DNA from: a virus
DNA: 29,061 nucleotides
Strand: one strand, 5' to 3'
Virus record (IMG/VR): IMGVR_UViG_3300035698_002062
Location: 1 to 29,061 of that record
Shown: positions 3,579-13,062 of the stretch, in pieces
How positions within the stretch are numbered: position 1 is the first letter of the stretch
Layout: every line of letters starts with the position of its first letter
The notes under the pieces: generated by a model
What the model was told of the DNA's origin: nothing
Databases searched by the model: none
The model's input: only the letters and a program-made list of their open reading frames with translations
Program-made: the position numbers and the translations under genes

Positions 3579-3612
3579 AAGCCCTTACTTTTGTTAGTGA
3601 GGGCTTTTTTTG
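3579..3612 (+). terminator. Intrinsic terminator of the recombination operon
   Basis: AAGCCCTTAC pairs with GTGAGGGCTT (one G-U pair) around an 8-base loop, followed by a run of T. It is a standard rho-independent terminator about 80 bases after the DUF3127 stop, separating the early recombination operon from the next region. Confidence 0.88.
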
Positions 3613-3801
3613 TGTCCGATTGTCACACATGGACATAGAGTATATTAGTATATTATATTTATTTTTTTAATTATTTCTAAAAATAGTGTGACAACGTGAC
3701 AAAACGATTAAAACCTATGCTGTGATTGGCTTTGACCTGTCAACTTTACGTGTGCCATTATGGTGACAGTATGACATAATAAATAACCAACTAAAAAAGC
3801 G
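3613..3801 (+). other. Non-coding repeat-rich region, replication-origin candidate
   Basis: There is no open frame of note. The hexamer GTGACA or its complement TGTCAC recurs at 3621-3626 (minus orientation), 3688-3693, 3696-3701 and 3763-3768; ATGACA is at 3771-3776 and TTGACCTGTCAA, a small palindrome, at 3732-3743. TTGTCACAC (3620-3628) and GTGTGACAA (3686-3694) form a perfect 9-base inverted repeat with an AT-only stretch between them (about 3640-3680), like a melting region. The stretch lies between DnaA-like/SSB-like genes and the primase-helicase gene. Origin function is inference; an operator cluster is the main alternative. No classical DnaA box is seen. Confidence 0.45.
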
Positions 3802-3829
3802 TTGTATTAATAAAATAACAGTATATTTG
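3802..3829 (+). promoter_or_regulatory. Bacteroidetes-type promoter of the replication operon
   Basis: TTG at 3802-3804 and TATATTTG at 3822-3829 are separated by 17 bases, a complete match to the Bacteroidetes consensus TTG-N17-23-TAnnTTTG. The expected start is near 3835-3840, directly at the first stem of the structured RNA that follows. This is the best promoter in the window. Confidence 0.78.
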
Positions 3830-3840
3830 TCTTTCAATAA

Positions 3841-3919
3841 GTGTGAGAGCTTTAAAGAAATTTAATTAATTACCTCTAAGATTCAAGTCTTCTCACACAC
3901 TTGTTTTTTAGGGGTTTTT
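3841..3919 (+). ncRNA. Pseudoknotted leader/small RNA, copy A
   Basis: Stem 1: GTGTGAGAG (3841-3849) pairs with TTCTCACAC (3890-3898; 8 Watson-Crick pairs plus one G-U). Stem 2: ACCTCTAAG (3872-3880) pairs with TTTAGGGGT (3907-3915; two wobbles), followed by TTTT. The 3' strand of stem 1 lies inside the loop of stem 2, which makes an H-type pseudoknot ending like an intrinsic terminator. The first loop is A/U-rich with AGAAATTTAAT. It begins at the expected start of the 3802 promoter, so it is either a short RNA of about 80 nt or an attenuator in the leader of the primase-helicase operon. AAGATTCAAGTCTT (3878-3891) could form a competing hairpin. Confidence 0.6.
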
Positions 3920-3934
3920 GCATTTATAAATATT

Positions 3935-4099
3935 ATGAAAGAAGAAGAAGTTTTAAAATTATTAATAGAATCAAATGGAGGTTTTTTAAAAGTTGGAAAA
4001 GAAACAGTAACAAAAGATGTTGATTTCTTTACTGTAACAGATGAAAGTGGAGGTTTTGGAGGTACTGCAATAGAGGTACTAAACTATTTAAAAACATAA
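3935..4099 (+). CDS. 54-residue small protein
   Basis: ATG at 3935, open for 54 codons to TAA at 4097-4099, two bases before the primase-helicase ATG. The product (MKEEEVLKLLIESNGGF start) has an N-terminal helix and a glycine-rich middle (ESGGFGGT). The tight spacing and leader TAAATATT argue that it is real. Function unknown; first protein after the structured leader. Confidence 0.6.
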   Translation: MKEEEVLKLLIESNGGFLKVGKETVTKDVDFFTVTDESGGFGGTAIEVLNYLKT

Positions 4100-4101
4100 C
4101 T

Positions 4102-6333
4102 ATGAAAAAGTTAGTTAAGCACAATCTTGGATTCTATAATAATTTAATTGATAAAGGCTTTTTAGTTATGCCGATTAAATTTAATAATAATCAACATATA
4201 TTTCCAAAAAGAGATAATAATAATTTAAAGATAGTTGATATTGAACAAGATTATCAAGATGATAAAACAGTTGGTTTTTGTTTGATAACTGGTTTTAATG
4301 ATTTAGAAGTAATTGATATTGACACAAAAATACTTCCTACTAAAAAGGAAAGGGATGAATTTTTAAAAGAATATTTTGATTTATTAGATAACCATATTGA
4401 TGATTTTTATAAAAAGTTTTGTATTGTTAAATCACAATCGGGTGGATTTCATATTCTTTATAAAAATGCTTTTTATGAAGGTAATTTAAAAGTTGCTAAA
4501 CCAAAAGGTTATAAAGAAGCATTAATTGAAACTCGTGGTAAAGGCGGTTTGGTTCATATTTATAATCGTGTTAAGGGTTTACAATATCATGAAATAGATT
4601 ACATAAGCGATGAAGATAGAAATCTTTTATTTCAAATATCTAAAACTTATCATTATGAAGAAGTAGTTGAGCCTAAAATAAAAAAACAGAACACCATTAT
4701 TTCAAATGGTTTAACTCCTTGGGAAGATTTTTCAAATAAAAATACTGTACTTTCTATTTGTTCAGATGATTTTGATGTTGTAAAAAACGGACGTACATCG
4801 ACAATGATAAGAAGGAAAGGTGCAAGTTCTGCTTTTAGCGGTCATATCTTTGACAATAGCGGTAAAATGTTTTTATTTTCTACTGGCACAATATACCCAC
4901 ATGAAACCCCTTTAAATTCTTTTGATGTTTATGTTTACAAACATCATAATGGAGATTATTCAGCTGCTACAAAACAAGCTTATTTTGATGGTTATGGTGC
5001 AAGATATAAGAAAGAAGAAACCCCAGTAATAATTGAAGAAGAATTAAAAGAAATAATTGATAATATTGCTTTTCCTATACATATTTTCCCTAAAGAAATT
5101 CAGCTTTATATTTTAGAATGTAACACAAAATTAAATGCTTCTATTGATTTTATGAGTGTTTCATTTATTTGGTTAATGTCTGTTTTAATAGGTAATACTT
5201 TAAAGGTTCAAGTAAAAAATGGCTGGGTTGATAGTCCTATTGTTTGGATTAGTGTTATTGGAGAAGCTGGAGTAGGTAAAACACCTGATTTAAAATTGAT
5301 TTTAAAGCCTTTATTGGACTTAAATAGTCAAGAGATAAAAAGATATGCTAAAAAACAAAGAGAGTTTAAAGCGTATGATAAAATGAGTAAAGAAGATAAG
5401 GATGTTAATGCAACAATTGAAGCTCCTATTAAAAGCCAATTAATAGTAGATGATATTACAATGGAATCTTTAATTGATTTACATTCTTATAACCCTAAAT
5501 CAATAGGAGTTTTTAAAGATGAACTTGCAGGGTGGTTTAAGGATATGAATAAATACAGAGAAGGTTCAGATAAAGAAAGGTTTTTATCAGCTTGGTCTGG
5601 TGATAGTATTGTATTAAATAGAAAAACAGCTGAAGATGCTTATGTTGAAAGTCCATTTATACCAATTTTAGGAGGTATTCAACCAAGTATATTTAAAGAA
5701 TTTCAAACATCTGAAAATCAATCTAATGGTTTCTTGGATAGAATGTTGTTTTGTGACCCTAAAAAAACAGCTACTTATCCTAAAGACGAAGAAATTAATC
5801 CCGATTTAATTATTCAATATAGAAATGTAATATTTAAAATAAAAGAACAGATTGATAAAGACCTTACAAAGATTGAAGATGGTGTTATTACACCATACAT
5901 TTTAAAACTAAACAAAGAAGCAAAAATTGAATATTCTAAAAGTCACTGTGCTTTAATTGACTCAATGAATAGTGATGATGAACTTAACCATCATAAAGGA
6001 ATGTTTGCAAAACAAATAACATATATTCCTAGATTCGCTCTATTAATTGAGTTTATTAATTGCATTTTCAAAGATGAATTTCCAAAAGAAATAACTAAAG
6101 AATCAATAGTTAAAGCGACTGAATTAAGCAACTATTTTATTTCAATGGCTAAAATAAATAAATCTGAAAATAAAGAAGATTCTAAAATAAAAACAGTTTT
6201 CGATTCTATGAGTGGTAAAACAGGTAAAGAAATAGCTAAACACTTAACTACAAAATTCCCTAAAGCATCGAAGAAAAAAATATCAGAGATTATGGATATT
6301 TCAGTACGTACTTTTTATAGATACACGAAATGA
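4102..6333 (+). CDS. Replicative primase-helicase (prim-pol-like plus DUF3987)
   Basis: A 743-residue protein. The N-terminal ~160 residues look like an archaeo-eukaryotic prim-pol domain: GFCLITG (58-64), EVIDID (69-74, catalytic acids), KSQSGGFHILYK (110-121) and IETRGKGGLVHIY (142-154). The middle is a DUF3987-type P-loop ATPase with Walker A GEAGVGKTP (about 387-395) and Walker B-like VFKDELAG (about 469-476). The last ~40 residues (GKTGKEIAKHL...ISVRTFYRY) look like a helix-turn-helix. It likely primes and unwinds phage DNA at the fork. It follows the origin candidate, and its stop overlaps the next ATG (ATGA). Confidence 0.85.
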   Translation: MKKLVKHNLGFYNNLIDKGFLVMPIKFNNNQHIFPKRDNNNLKIVDIEQDYQDDKTVGFCLITGFNDLEVIDIDTKILPTKKERDEFLKEYFDLLDNHIDDFYKKFCIVKSQSGGFHILYKNAFYEGNLKVAKPKGYKEALIETRGKGGLVHIYNRVKGLQYHEIDYISDEDRNLLFQISKTYHYEEVVEPKIKKQNTIISNGLTPWEDFSNKNTVLSICSDDFDVVKNGRTSTMIRRKGASSAFSGHIFDNSGKMFLFSTGTIYPHETPLNSFDVYVYKHHNGDYSAATKQAYFDGYGARYKKEETPVIIEEELKEIIDNIAFPIHIFPKEIQLYILECNTKLNASIDFMSVSFIWLMSVLIGNTLKVQVKNGWVDSPIVWISVIGEAGVGKTPDLKLILKPLLDLNSQEIKRYAKKQREFKAYDKMSKEDKDVNATIEAPIKSQLIVDDITMESLIDLHSYNPKSIGVFKDELAGWFKDMNKYREGSDKERFLSAWSGDSIVLNRKTAEDAYVESPFIPILGGIQPSIFKEFQTSENQSNGFLDRMLFCDPKKTATYPKDEEINPDLIIQYRNVIFKIKEQIDKDLTKIEDGVITPYILKLNKEAKIEYSKSHCALIDSMNSDDELNHHKGMFAKQITYIPRFALLIEFINCIFKDEFPKEITKESIVKATELSNYFISMAKINKSENKEDSKIKTVFDSMSGKTGKEIAKHLTTKFPKASKKKISEIMDISVRTFYRYTK

Positions 6334-8118: not shown

Positions 8119-8127
8119 TATATTTAC
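8119..8127 (+). promoter_or_regulatory. Weak -7-like site before pseudoknot copy B
   Basis: TATATTTAC (one change from TAnnTTTG) begins one base after the helicase stop and 17 bases before the first pseudoknot strand. The same nonamer stands before copy C (11370-11378), and TATATTTGT before copy A (3822-3830). No TTG is present at the -33 distance, so it may belong to the RNA element or be a weak promoter. Confidence 0.35.
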
Positions 8128-8135
8128 AAAGCTAA

Positions 8136-8206
8136 CCGCCAAGTAGTAATAAGAAATTTTAATAAAGCCCTTTCGGTGGTCTTGGCGGACATTGAAGGGG
8201 TTTTTT
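8136..8206 (+). ncRNA. Pseudoknotted RNA element, copy B
   Basis: Stem 1: CCGCCAAG (8136-8143) pairs perfectly with CTTGGCGG (8181-8188). Stem 2: AAAGCCCTTTC (8164-8174) pairs with GAAGGGGTTTT (8194-8204; 11 pairs including two wobbles) and ends in a T run. The 3' strand of stem 1 lies inside the loop of stem 2, the same topology as copy A, with first loops of nearly equal length (20 and 22 bases) and a shared AGAAATTT(T)AAT motif. The stem-1 sequences of the two copies are unrelated yet both pair. It lies between the helicase gene and the nuclease gene, with a homing-endonuclease-like start peptide right after it. Confidence 0.6.
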
Positions 8207-8211
8207 GATTT

Positions 8212-8262
8212 ATGGAAAAAGAAATATGGAAAGATATTAAAGGGTTCGAAAATGGGTTTTAA
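8212..8262 (+). pseudogene. Remnant of a NUMOD4-type HNH homing endonuclease start
   Basis: A 16-codon ORF, MEKEIWKDIKGFENGF, ending in TAA. It matches the start of NUMOD4-containing HNH homing endonucleases (the EIW.DIKGYEG.Y segment) and then stops where the VSNLGRV part should follow. The following nuclease gene begins inside its last codons in another frame. Likely the scar of a deleted homing endonuclease; alternatively a short leader peptide. Confidence 0.45.
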
Positions 8263-8620
8263 AAGAAAAAACATGGCGGCATCTATAAAAAAAAGCGAGG
8301 CACTAATTCAGCAAGAAATGGTGAAATGGTTTCGTGAAAACTATTATGGAAAAGGAATAATTTTCAGCGTACCAAATGAAAGAAGTGGTGGTTATATGAC
8401 AATGAAGGATTTATTACTTACTGGTTTACTTTCAGGAGTAAGTGATTTAATTGTAGTGTTAAAAGGTAAAGTTTTATTTATTGAAGTAAAAAATGCTAAA
8501 GGTATTCAAAGCGAAGCCCAAAAAAGATTTGAATTGTTAGTGCAGAAACTAGACTTCCCATATTACCTAGTCAGAACTTTTGAAGAATTTGAAAAAATAA
8601 TTAACAAAAGTAACGTTTAA
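8252..8620 (+). CDS. VRR-NUC domain nuclease
   Basis: A 122-residue (start 8252; a second ATG at 8273 is equally possible) standalone VRR-NUC domain of the PD-(D/E)XK superfamily: IQQEMVKWFRE helix (19-29), VPNERSGG (40-47), GLLSGVSDLIVV (58-69, Asp65), LFIEVKNAKG (75-84, Glu78-x-Lys80) and SEAQKRFE (87-94, Gln90). All catalytic positions are present. Small phage VRR-NUC proteins act as structure-specific or nicking nucleases in replication and recombination. An in-frame TTG at 8192 is rejected because it lies in stem 2 of pseudoknot B. Confidence 0.88.
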   Translation: MGFKRKNMAASIKKSEALIQQEMVKWFRENYYGKGIIFSVPNERSGGYMTMKDLLLTGLLSGVSDLIVVLKGKVLFIEVKNAKGIQSEAQKRFELLVQKLDFPYYLVRTFEEFEKIINKSNV

Positions 8621-11502: not shown

Positions 11503-11886
11503 TTGAGAAGTTTCAGAAGTGAATTAAAGGAGAAAGCTGAGCAAGTAGCAGCCGTTAATCGACAAAAGCGGAAGCTTAAGCGAAAAGAGGATAAGCAACT
11601 GGCTGAGATTAACACTAATTTCGATGGGGTGGTTAATGCCTTCCAAACAATGCTATTTACTACCGACTGGGATAACCCGAAAGCGGTAAAGCTGGATATT
11701 TACAAGGAGTTTAACGCAGCTTGGTTGAACTTTTGCAGCATATATAACGCAAGTAAAAAGAATATGATTAAAGCTAACGAGAAAGCCTTTTACGAATGGG
11801 CAATTGATAACACTAAAAACAACAATGATGATAAATCTATTTCTACTGGTAATTATAAACTCACTTATTTGCGTTGGGCTTTTTAA
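11503..11886 (+). CDS. Hypothetical late protein, basic N-terminus
   Basis: A 127-residue protein starting at TTG 11503; an in-frame stop lies just upstream at 11497-11499 and no early ATG exists. Residues 1-45 are a long, very basic helix (RQKRKLKRKEDKQLAEI); residues 48-110 are helical with aromatic residues. The 3' end overlaps the membrane-protein gene by about 60 bases in another frame. No family recognised. Confidence 0.6.
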   Translation: MRSFRSELKEKAEQVAAVNRQKRKLKRKEDKQLAEINTNFDGVVNAFQTMLFTTDWDNPKAVKLDIYKEFNAAWLNFCSIYNASKKNMIKANEKAFYEWAIDNTKNNNDDKSISTGNYKLTYLRWAF

Positions 11887-12460: not shown

Positions 12461-13062
12461 AATTCAAGACAACTATTGCAAAGGTTACTAACTGGATTAC
12501 ACGTAAGCCTCAATTTTTAATTGAGCCTCAAGCACCGATTAAGGAAGCTTTTATTAGCGGAGGTGTTACCTACTATATGTTTGATGATATATTCTCTTTA
12601 CCTTGTCAGAGGGCTTTTGAGGCAACAACTTACTATGAAGAATTAAAGAGTGGGATTAGTGCTGAGTATTTAAAATTACATATTCAAGCTATGGATGCAA
12701 TAGTGAGCAATACTAAGGAGATAAACCTATCTCAGATAATTATGTTACAAGCCCGATTAAAAGAAAGAAGTGATTTTGTGATTGATGCGGATATTGTGTT
12801 TAAATTAGCATCCGTATTGTACTTCGATAAGAATGAAAATCCTTATGCCTATGATATGAAATATAATCACGGTAAAATAAAGGCTTGGAAACAAGATAAT
12901 GAAATAGCTGATTTTTTTTTATCCACGCCTATCAAGACTTTGCTACCCTTTACAGATATATTGGAACACGATTTGAGCAGTTATTTAAAGGTGGTGGAGC
13001 AGATGAAGAAGAAACAAAAGAACGAAGTGTTATCGATAATATCCAAGAAAGCCGTGAGCTAA
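12457..13062 (+). CDS. Tail assembly chaperone, short (zero-frame) product, gpG-like
   Basis: A 201-residue protein directly before the tape-measure gene. ATG at 12457 overlaps the upstream stop; an in-frame GTG at 12385 is rejected because it lies inside the neighbour. I identify it by position and by the slippery T9 run at 12912-12920: the -1 frame opens at that run and extends to the tape measure, the gpG/gpGT arrangement of lambda-like tails. The short form would coat the tape measure during tail assembly and is absent from the finished tail. The sequence itself matches no family I can name. Confidence 0.75.
   Translation: MKFKTTIAKVTNWITRKPQFLIEPQAPIKEAFISGGVTYYMFDDIFSLPCQRAFEATTYYEELKSGISAEYLKLHIQAMDAIVSNTKEINLSQIIMLQARLKERSDFVIDADIVFKLASVLYFDKNENPYAYDMKYNHGKIKAWKQDNEIADFFLSTPIKTLLPFTDILEHDLSSYLKVVEQMKKKQKNEVLSIISKKAVS

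Follow-up and report, generated by a model that had tools for sequence, protein, structure and literature searches.

The guanidine-IV riboswitch (GGAM-1/mepA) and Gd4v consist of two hairpins joined by a loop-loop helix, with the 3′ hairpin forming an intrinsic terminator that has a U-tract and lies before the gene, and neither has an antiterminator sequence overlapping the terminator. For guanidine-IV it has been proposed that the kissing loop strains the linker, such that the terminator stem cannot close and read-through increases (PMC11611296, PMC7736828, PMC9788692). The putL and putR RNAs of phage HK022 are described as cis-acting RNAs of ~70 nt with two stem-loops that are found behind phage promoters, two per genome; they act on RNA polymerase in the region of its zinc-binding domain, suppressing remote terminators (PMC9378689). 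In phage T4, RNA structure directly upstream of the homing-endonuclease genes I-TevI, segB and mobE limits their expression, and mobE and segF carry internal terminators (PMC2988022). Flavo-1 RNA (RF01705) is a structured RNA of the Flavobacteria, found in some 5′ regions (PMC9723704). Little is known about gene timing in phages of the Bacteroidota, and the literature found describes no transcription control elements there.

The window studied here is an entire IMG/VR virus record of 29,061 bases. Its genes are arranged as in a tailed phage (DnaA-C-like protein, DUF3987 primase, helicase, VRR-NUC, terminase, then later genes), its closest relatives are environmental phages and it has weak local similarity to named phages, including Flavobacterium and Cellulophaga phages. 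On the plus strand are two copies of an RNA element, copy A (3841-3919) and copy B (8136-8206), which are, judged by their sequences and predicted folds, members of one phage RNA family. The order of parts in this family is a putative promoter of the canonical Bacteroidetes type (TAnnTTTG), a 5′-terminal hairpin (P1), an A-rich linker, a predicted intrinsic terminator (stem S2, upper stem P2 and U-tract) and an ATG, with the loop of P1 kissing the terminator loop in a helix (K) of 6-9 bp. A preliminary description of copy B had drawn a simple H-type pseudoknot, of which the pairing strands stand; P1 and P2 were missed, as were the promoter and an endonuclease remnant described below, and the fold is better represented as two hairpins with a kissing helix. 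What was called stem 1 is the loop-loop helix K, its 5′ strand (K1) in the P1 loop and its 3′ strand (K2) in the P2 loop inside S2.

Like guanidine-IV, the element has two loop-loop-paired hairpins, the 3′ one predicted to be an intrinsic terminator. It differs in that the highly conserved ligand-contacting loop nucleotides are absent, the kissing sequence is hypervariable and the element is carried by phages of flavobacteria, ahead of replication and mobile genes. Lacking the conserved ligand pocket, the element is not assigned to the guanidine-IV class, which appears instead to be the best model for how it may work; no guanidine-IV match was obtained from Rfam at E ≤ 5 for copies A and B and the copy in locus L042, though Rfam 15 may lack an accession for the class. 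Two promoter-proximal stem-loops in phage operons, as in put, are also present, with P1 at about +1/+2 followed by the terminator hairpin. The put RNAs are from lambdoid phages, however, and in the accessible text of their description (PMC9378689) no terminator of their own is mentioned and the word pseudoknot does not occur, whereas a T-rich tract is universal in the element, which closes with a conserved terminator of its own; put is not a match. The T4 leaders differ in that their hairpins hide the ribosome binding site, have no kissing loop and do not form a shared family that precedes housekeeping phage genes. The Flavo-1 model matched neither copy of the window, nor the copies of mumin9-1, P12002L and L042. 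A gathering-threshold Rfam search of the window at the elements, and a search at E ≤ 5 with both window copies and L042, gave no significant or relevant family, and nothing describing the element was found in the literature searched. As far as Rfam 15 and this literature show, the element is a new RNA family, in agreement with the earlier statement that no named class fits. A kissing-loop terminator is itself a known kind of mechanism.

Upstream of copy A, the likely -33 box TTG (3802-3804), here 20 nt upstream of TAnnTTTG, and the -7 box TATATTTG (3822-3829) were read from the sequence, with a predicted transcription start at 3834. P1 (3839-3852; AAG/CTT, loop TGTGAGAG) was located by the scanner and by folding, and includes K1, GTGTGAGA (3841-3848), identified from the sequence and in the loop-pairing test. 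The A-rich linker (3853-3871) contains AAAGAAATTTAAT, the linker motif being enriched in the family, and is followed by the 5′ arm of S2 (3872-3881; scanner and fold), by P2 (3884-3903; CAAGT/ACTTG), which surrounds K2, TCTCACAC (3891-3898; scanner, fold and loop-pairing test), and by the 3′ arm of S2 with the U-tract (3906-3919; scanner, T-free scan and fold). The pairs of this copy are GTGTGAGA/TCTCACAC and ACCTCTAA/TTAGGGGT, then T residues. According to the gene annotation, the first gene behind the leader encodes 54 amino acids (3935-4099, plus strand) and precedes the DUF3987 primase gene (4102-6333, plus strand).

Copy B is located between the stop codon of the helicase gene (8118) and the VRR-NUC gene (annotated on the plus strand at 8273-8620, with an alternative start at 8252 possible). 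The -7 box, TATATTTA (8119-8126), has one mismatch and the predicted start is at 8131. P1 (8132-8146), assigned from its geometry and the sequence, pairs CTA (8132-8134) with TAG (8144-8146) around the loop ACCGCCAAG; K1 within it, CCGCCAAG (8136-8143; sequence, strict scan and loop-pairing test), is fully complementary to K2, CTTGGCGG (8181-8188). The linker, again A-rich and containing AGAAATTTTAAT (8147-8165; sequence), leads to the 5′ arm of S2, AGCCCTTTC (8166-8174; sequence and fold), which pairs with the 3′ arm GAAGGGGTT (8194-8202), and T residues continue through 8206 (arm and U-tract, 8194-8206; sequence). Between the two arms is P2 (8175-8193), where GGTG (8175-8178) faces CATT (8190-8193) around K2 (fold and loop-pairing test). 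The sequence and stem pairs of copy B are as first reported, and so is the linker motif common to the two copies: AGAAATTT is found in both linkers and nowhere else in the window. A strict pseudoknot scan of both strands of the window had copy B as its sole match with a T-tail.

Using the primase as query, 80 viral loci were obtained for comparison. A structure scan of the window and ~80 related loci revealed 52 promoter-linked plus-strand structures versus 0-1 per dinucleotide shuffle (5 shuffles), while a second scan, which required the promoter, P1, kissing, S2 and a downstream ATG and made no T requirement, gave 69 matches at a score of at least 50 and none in shuffled sequence. In close relatives the arrangement is kept while the pairs can be completely different, as exemplified by the elements upstream of the primase in loci L004 (GCCTTGGA/TCCAAGGC and AACCCG/CGGGTT) and L005 (GTGTGGTA/TACCACAC and ACCTCTAT/ATAGGGGT). 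Loops scored a mean of 18.9 with their own partners and 9.5 when swapped between elements; the best permutation reached 12.3 and none of 20,000 reached the own-partner score. In an alignment in which many rows are related and whose seeds were first picked by a scan demanding complementarity, 91.7% of the cells are standard pairs, changes on both sides are present in 21 of the 23 pairs and doubly changed cells number 262, compared with 68 in shuffles; sliding by one column reduces pairing to 37-42%. Covariation is present in all four helices (P1, P2, S2 and K).

Since the first MAFFT alignments of the very divergent copies were poor, a seed of seven sequences was used for covariance models. The first model (R1) was built from seven copies from other loci, without window sequence, and only P1, P2 and S2 were paired; the second (R2) included copy A and excluded copy B, and kissing pairs were in neither. 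With E-values that are rough, R1 matched copy A at 1.6e-4 and copy B at 0.34, and R2 matched copy A, which was in its training, at 8e-6 and copy B, which was not, at 0.023. R2 also matched cultured phages outside the training set, namely mumin9-1 (1.6e-11 and 2.5e-4), P12002L (6.9e-9), P2559S (3e-4) and 11b (4e-4). The structure is almost certainly real. The preliminary description had deduced selection for structure from compensated stem changes and had proposed a covariance-model search for further copies; two copies alone are no proof of covariation, and it is across the family, where many copies with compensated changes were found, that the deduction holds.

The kissing strands are diverse, with 47 distinct K1 sequences among 61 copies. 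Among the model-aligned copies the GU:AC end of K hardly varies; it is absent from copy B of the window. The linker is usually 17-21 nt (median 19 nt). A shortening of the linker with a longer terminator arm was seen and set aside, as it is the scanner that sets where S2 ends on its outer side. Some copies (L052, 4889-4975; L092, 37494-37582) have an extra small hairpin in a linker of ~30 nt (GGTTTAATTACTAAACC and GGTTTTTTAACC, respectively).

All 61 distinct copies from the T-free scan have at least four T in the eight positions after the 3′ arm of S2 (S2b). T occupies positions 1 to 5 in 92, 85, 85, 77 and 72% of them, and A is common only from position 6 onward. The element thus has the GC-containing hairpin with a U-tract directly behind it that is expected of an intrinsic terminator. 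Its hairpin has a mean of -17.0 kcal/mol, whereas ordinary terminators of these loci have -10.7 kcal/mol, and the U-tracts of the two are comparable. Across the family, P1 most often starts 5 nt after TAnnTTTG, TTG is enriched 21-26 nt upstream of this box and S2b is followed at 8-28 nt by an ATG. The TAnnTTTG box of Flavobacterium is located at -12 to -5 (PMC9723704), so that the predicted transcript would have P1 at its outermost 5′ end. The element is thus very probably a transcribed leader that ends in an intrinsic terminator.

The element is found in the cultured phages mumin9-1 (two copies, at 11684 and 12722 of NC_048837, with U-tracts at about 11755-11760 and 12806-12811), 11b, P12002L, FCL-2 and P2559S. 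P12024S has no convincing copy, and none was found in 6H, phi40:1 (first 50 kb), B124-14 and RAP44. Direct scanning of 316 kb of host chromosomes gave only two weak chance matches, without a TAnnTTTG promoter, and the host chromosome sample contained no covariance-model match below E 0.2. Among 199 genomes of one family, with few candidates scored in each, the single match was on a phage-like primase contig, and phages of other groups with related terminases (902 kb) had promoter-less chance matches only. In 50 of the 79 testable loci the element is at most 900 nt upstream of the primase match. Further targets are NUMOD4/HNH and GIY-YIG homing endonucleases, an ERF recombinase, DNA methylases, an HTH_36 protein annotated as primosomal and many small proteins. 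In many marine and freshwater flavobacterial phages the predicted element separates a putative promoter from the start codon of certain genes, which bears out the earlier view of a terminator element that is repeated ahead of separate sets of genes and shows compensated changes. Two related contigs (L115, 5201-5286; L123, 4866-4955) have a different long structure (GGTGTGAGACCCGG ... GGTGTCTCATCAG), located 22-23 nt upstream of an ATG and without a Bacteroidetes promoter.

In a search with one NUMOD4 endonuclease, the element stood intact immediately ahead of the ATG in 12 loci and was cut by the contig end in one further locus; the NUMOD4 loci that lack the element are mostly from other lineages. 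Homing-endonuclease genes appear to carry their own copy of the element. An exception is locus L206 (near 2001), where a NUMOD4 endonuclease gene has a flavobacterial-like promoter and a short 5′ leader without the element. In the window, a truncated ORF, MEKEIWKDIKGFENGF* (8212-8262, plus strand), starts ~10 nt past the terminator stem of copy B and, in a by-eye alignment, resembles the starts of NUMOD4 endonucleases (MEVWKKIEGFENY...), pointing to the remnant of a NUMOD4/HNH homing-endonuclease start. Intact NUMOD4 homologues are located behind the same leader in other loci, and at the same helicase/VRR-NUC junction a relative (L002) has neither the element nor an insert, and the remnant is absent as well. 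The junction looks like a homing-endonuclease insertion site, and the simplest reading is that an endonuclease gene inserted here together with its own leader and was later lost, leaving the leader and the first codons. The one-base change in the -7 box of copy B (TATATTTA) fits relaxed selection, but such a change also occurs in other copies (L070 and L074).

On the sequence evidence, the element is more probably than otherwise a cis-acting transcription attenuator, and the family is probably a shared on/off valve for the downstream genes. Host RNA polymerase would start at a constitutive-type promoter, giving a transcript with P1 at its very 5′ end, and ~75 nt after P1 it would meet the strong intrinsic terminator (S2, P2 and U-tract) just before the start codon. 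By default, transcription would stop at the U-tract. The kissing helix could form once the terminator loop emerges and, as proposed for guanidine-IV, may stretch the linker so that the outer terminator pairs stay open and read-through occurs; with the opposite sign, kissing would clamp or lock the terminator. Candidate triggers are a factor that binds the conserved linker, the speed of transcription, or infection-induced changes of RNA polymerase, and a common valve before replication, recombination and homing-endonuclease genes would allow their co-regulation.

The many unrelated genes behind the element (primase, NUMOD4, ERF, methylases, GIY-YIG and HTH_36) argue for attenuation in cis. A classical transcriptional riboswitch platform was rejected, as no antiterminator helix using a terminator arm was found upstream in the leader (complementarity 8.93 versus 9.12 permuted for S2a, and 9.11 versus 9.01 for S2b). 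A leader-peptide attenuator was also rejected as a general explanation: 23 of the 61 leaders lack any ATG, and an ATG ORF of five or more codons that closes ahead of the U-tract is found in just 19. With no upstream replacement for the terminator arms and no general leader peptide, the kissing helix is the only visible long-range switch. Against attenuation, all four helices covary together and the terminated RNA could equally be the functional form; with a median of 19 nt, the linker is probably long enough to bridge the whole structure, so that kissing need not exclude a complete terminator. No phage gene that might encode a dedicated antiterminator was found to be common to six positive genomes, in BLAST comparisons of limited sensitivity for short, fast-evolving proteins. 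A more speculative form of the attenuator, to which we give only a minor chance, is a self-acting, ligand-free antitermination code, in which every leader would have a loop pair of its own, and kissing of this pair as the RNA is transcribed would decide read-through; a phage lineage would then use one mechanism with interchangeable loops to time replication, recombination and homing-endonuclease genes, and the endonucleases would spread with their own valve.

The terminated RNA of ~80 nt could itself be the product: a small phage RNA, stable and with both ends protected, that acts in trans, the gene being read only by leakage. This is unlikely: the RNA would have its own promoter, a U-tail and a compact fold in which all helices are kept, but the loops that would address targets differ between copies and fit their own partners best, and almost every promoter-linked copy of the first scan, where an ATG was not a requirement, is followed 8-28 nt past the terminator by an ATG, at many unrelated genes. 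The small-RNA family offered in the preliminary description is less likely, as the copies are immediately followed by the start codons of these genes, and of the other options offered there attenuation fits better than put, given the conserved terminator that belongs to the element itself. Antitermination by RNA alone, as in HK022 put, in which the folded leader would bind RNA polymerase and carry it past its own and later terminators, is improbable. It has a precedent in a two-hairpin RNA of similar length (PMC9378689), would need no common phage protein and is consistent with promoter-proximal copies at several operons of one phage, but neither an own terminator nor a pseudoknot is mentioned for put in that text and a strong terminator is universal in the element. 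Very unlikely is a 5′ UTR structure that would affect how stable the mRNA is or when it is translated, with the U-run serving only as an AU-rich landing site for ribosomes; the hairpin at the extreme 5′ end, the AU-rich stretch before the ATG and the control of T4 homing-endonuclease translation by RNA hairpins (PMC2988022) are in keeping with it, but the base directly after S2b is T and not A (92% at position 1, with A from position 6), which is a terminator signature, and S2 does not cover the start region. Least credible is a small-molecule riboswitch whose ligand pocket would be made up of the GU/AC end of K and the conserved linker; this would suit the nearly invariant GU:AC end and an architecture equal to that of guanidine-IV and its variant, but the kissing nucleotides vary too freely (47 distinct K1 among 61) for a small molecule to be bound by the kissing helix itself, copy B lacks the GU/AC end and the targets are replication and mobile genes and not a pathway.

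The attenuator reading can be tested at once, since this compact element with very strong covariation is present in cultured phages with published hosts (e.g. mumin9-1 on Flavobacterium LMO9). A kissing-loop terminator outside the known riboswitches would represent a gene-control part of general use whose loop sequences can be exchanged, and here also a portable leader linked to mobile homing-endonuclease genes. For annotation, the element marks probable transcription and gene starts in many environmental phage genomes.

Upstream of copy A, the preceding operon of the window is closed by an ordinary strong terminator (AAGCCCTTACTTTTGTTAGTGAGGGCTT and T residues, 3579-3606), which has a short loop and no partner hairpin, in contrast to copies A and B. 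From the DnaA-C-like gene region to copy A (3610-3780), words of the GTGACA/TGTCAC type are repeated. Analogous repeats occur in a similar place in L004 and L007 (GTAACAT, GTGACAT), L036 and L039 (GTGCGACAT/GGGACAT) and L038 and L066 (TTTCACACTTTT), and these words, in the window and in its relatives, are possible iterons of a replication origin.
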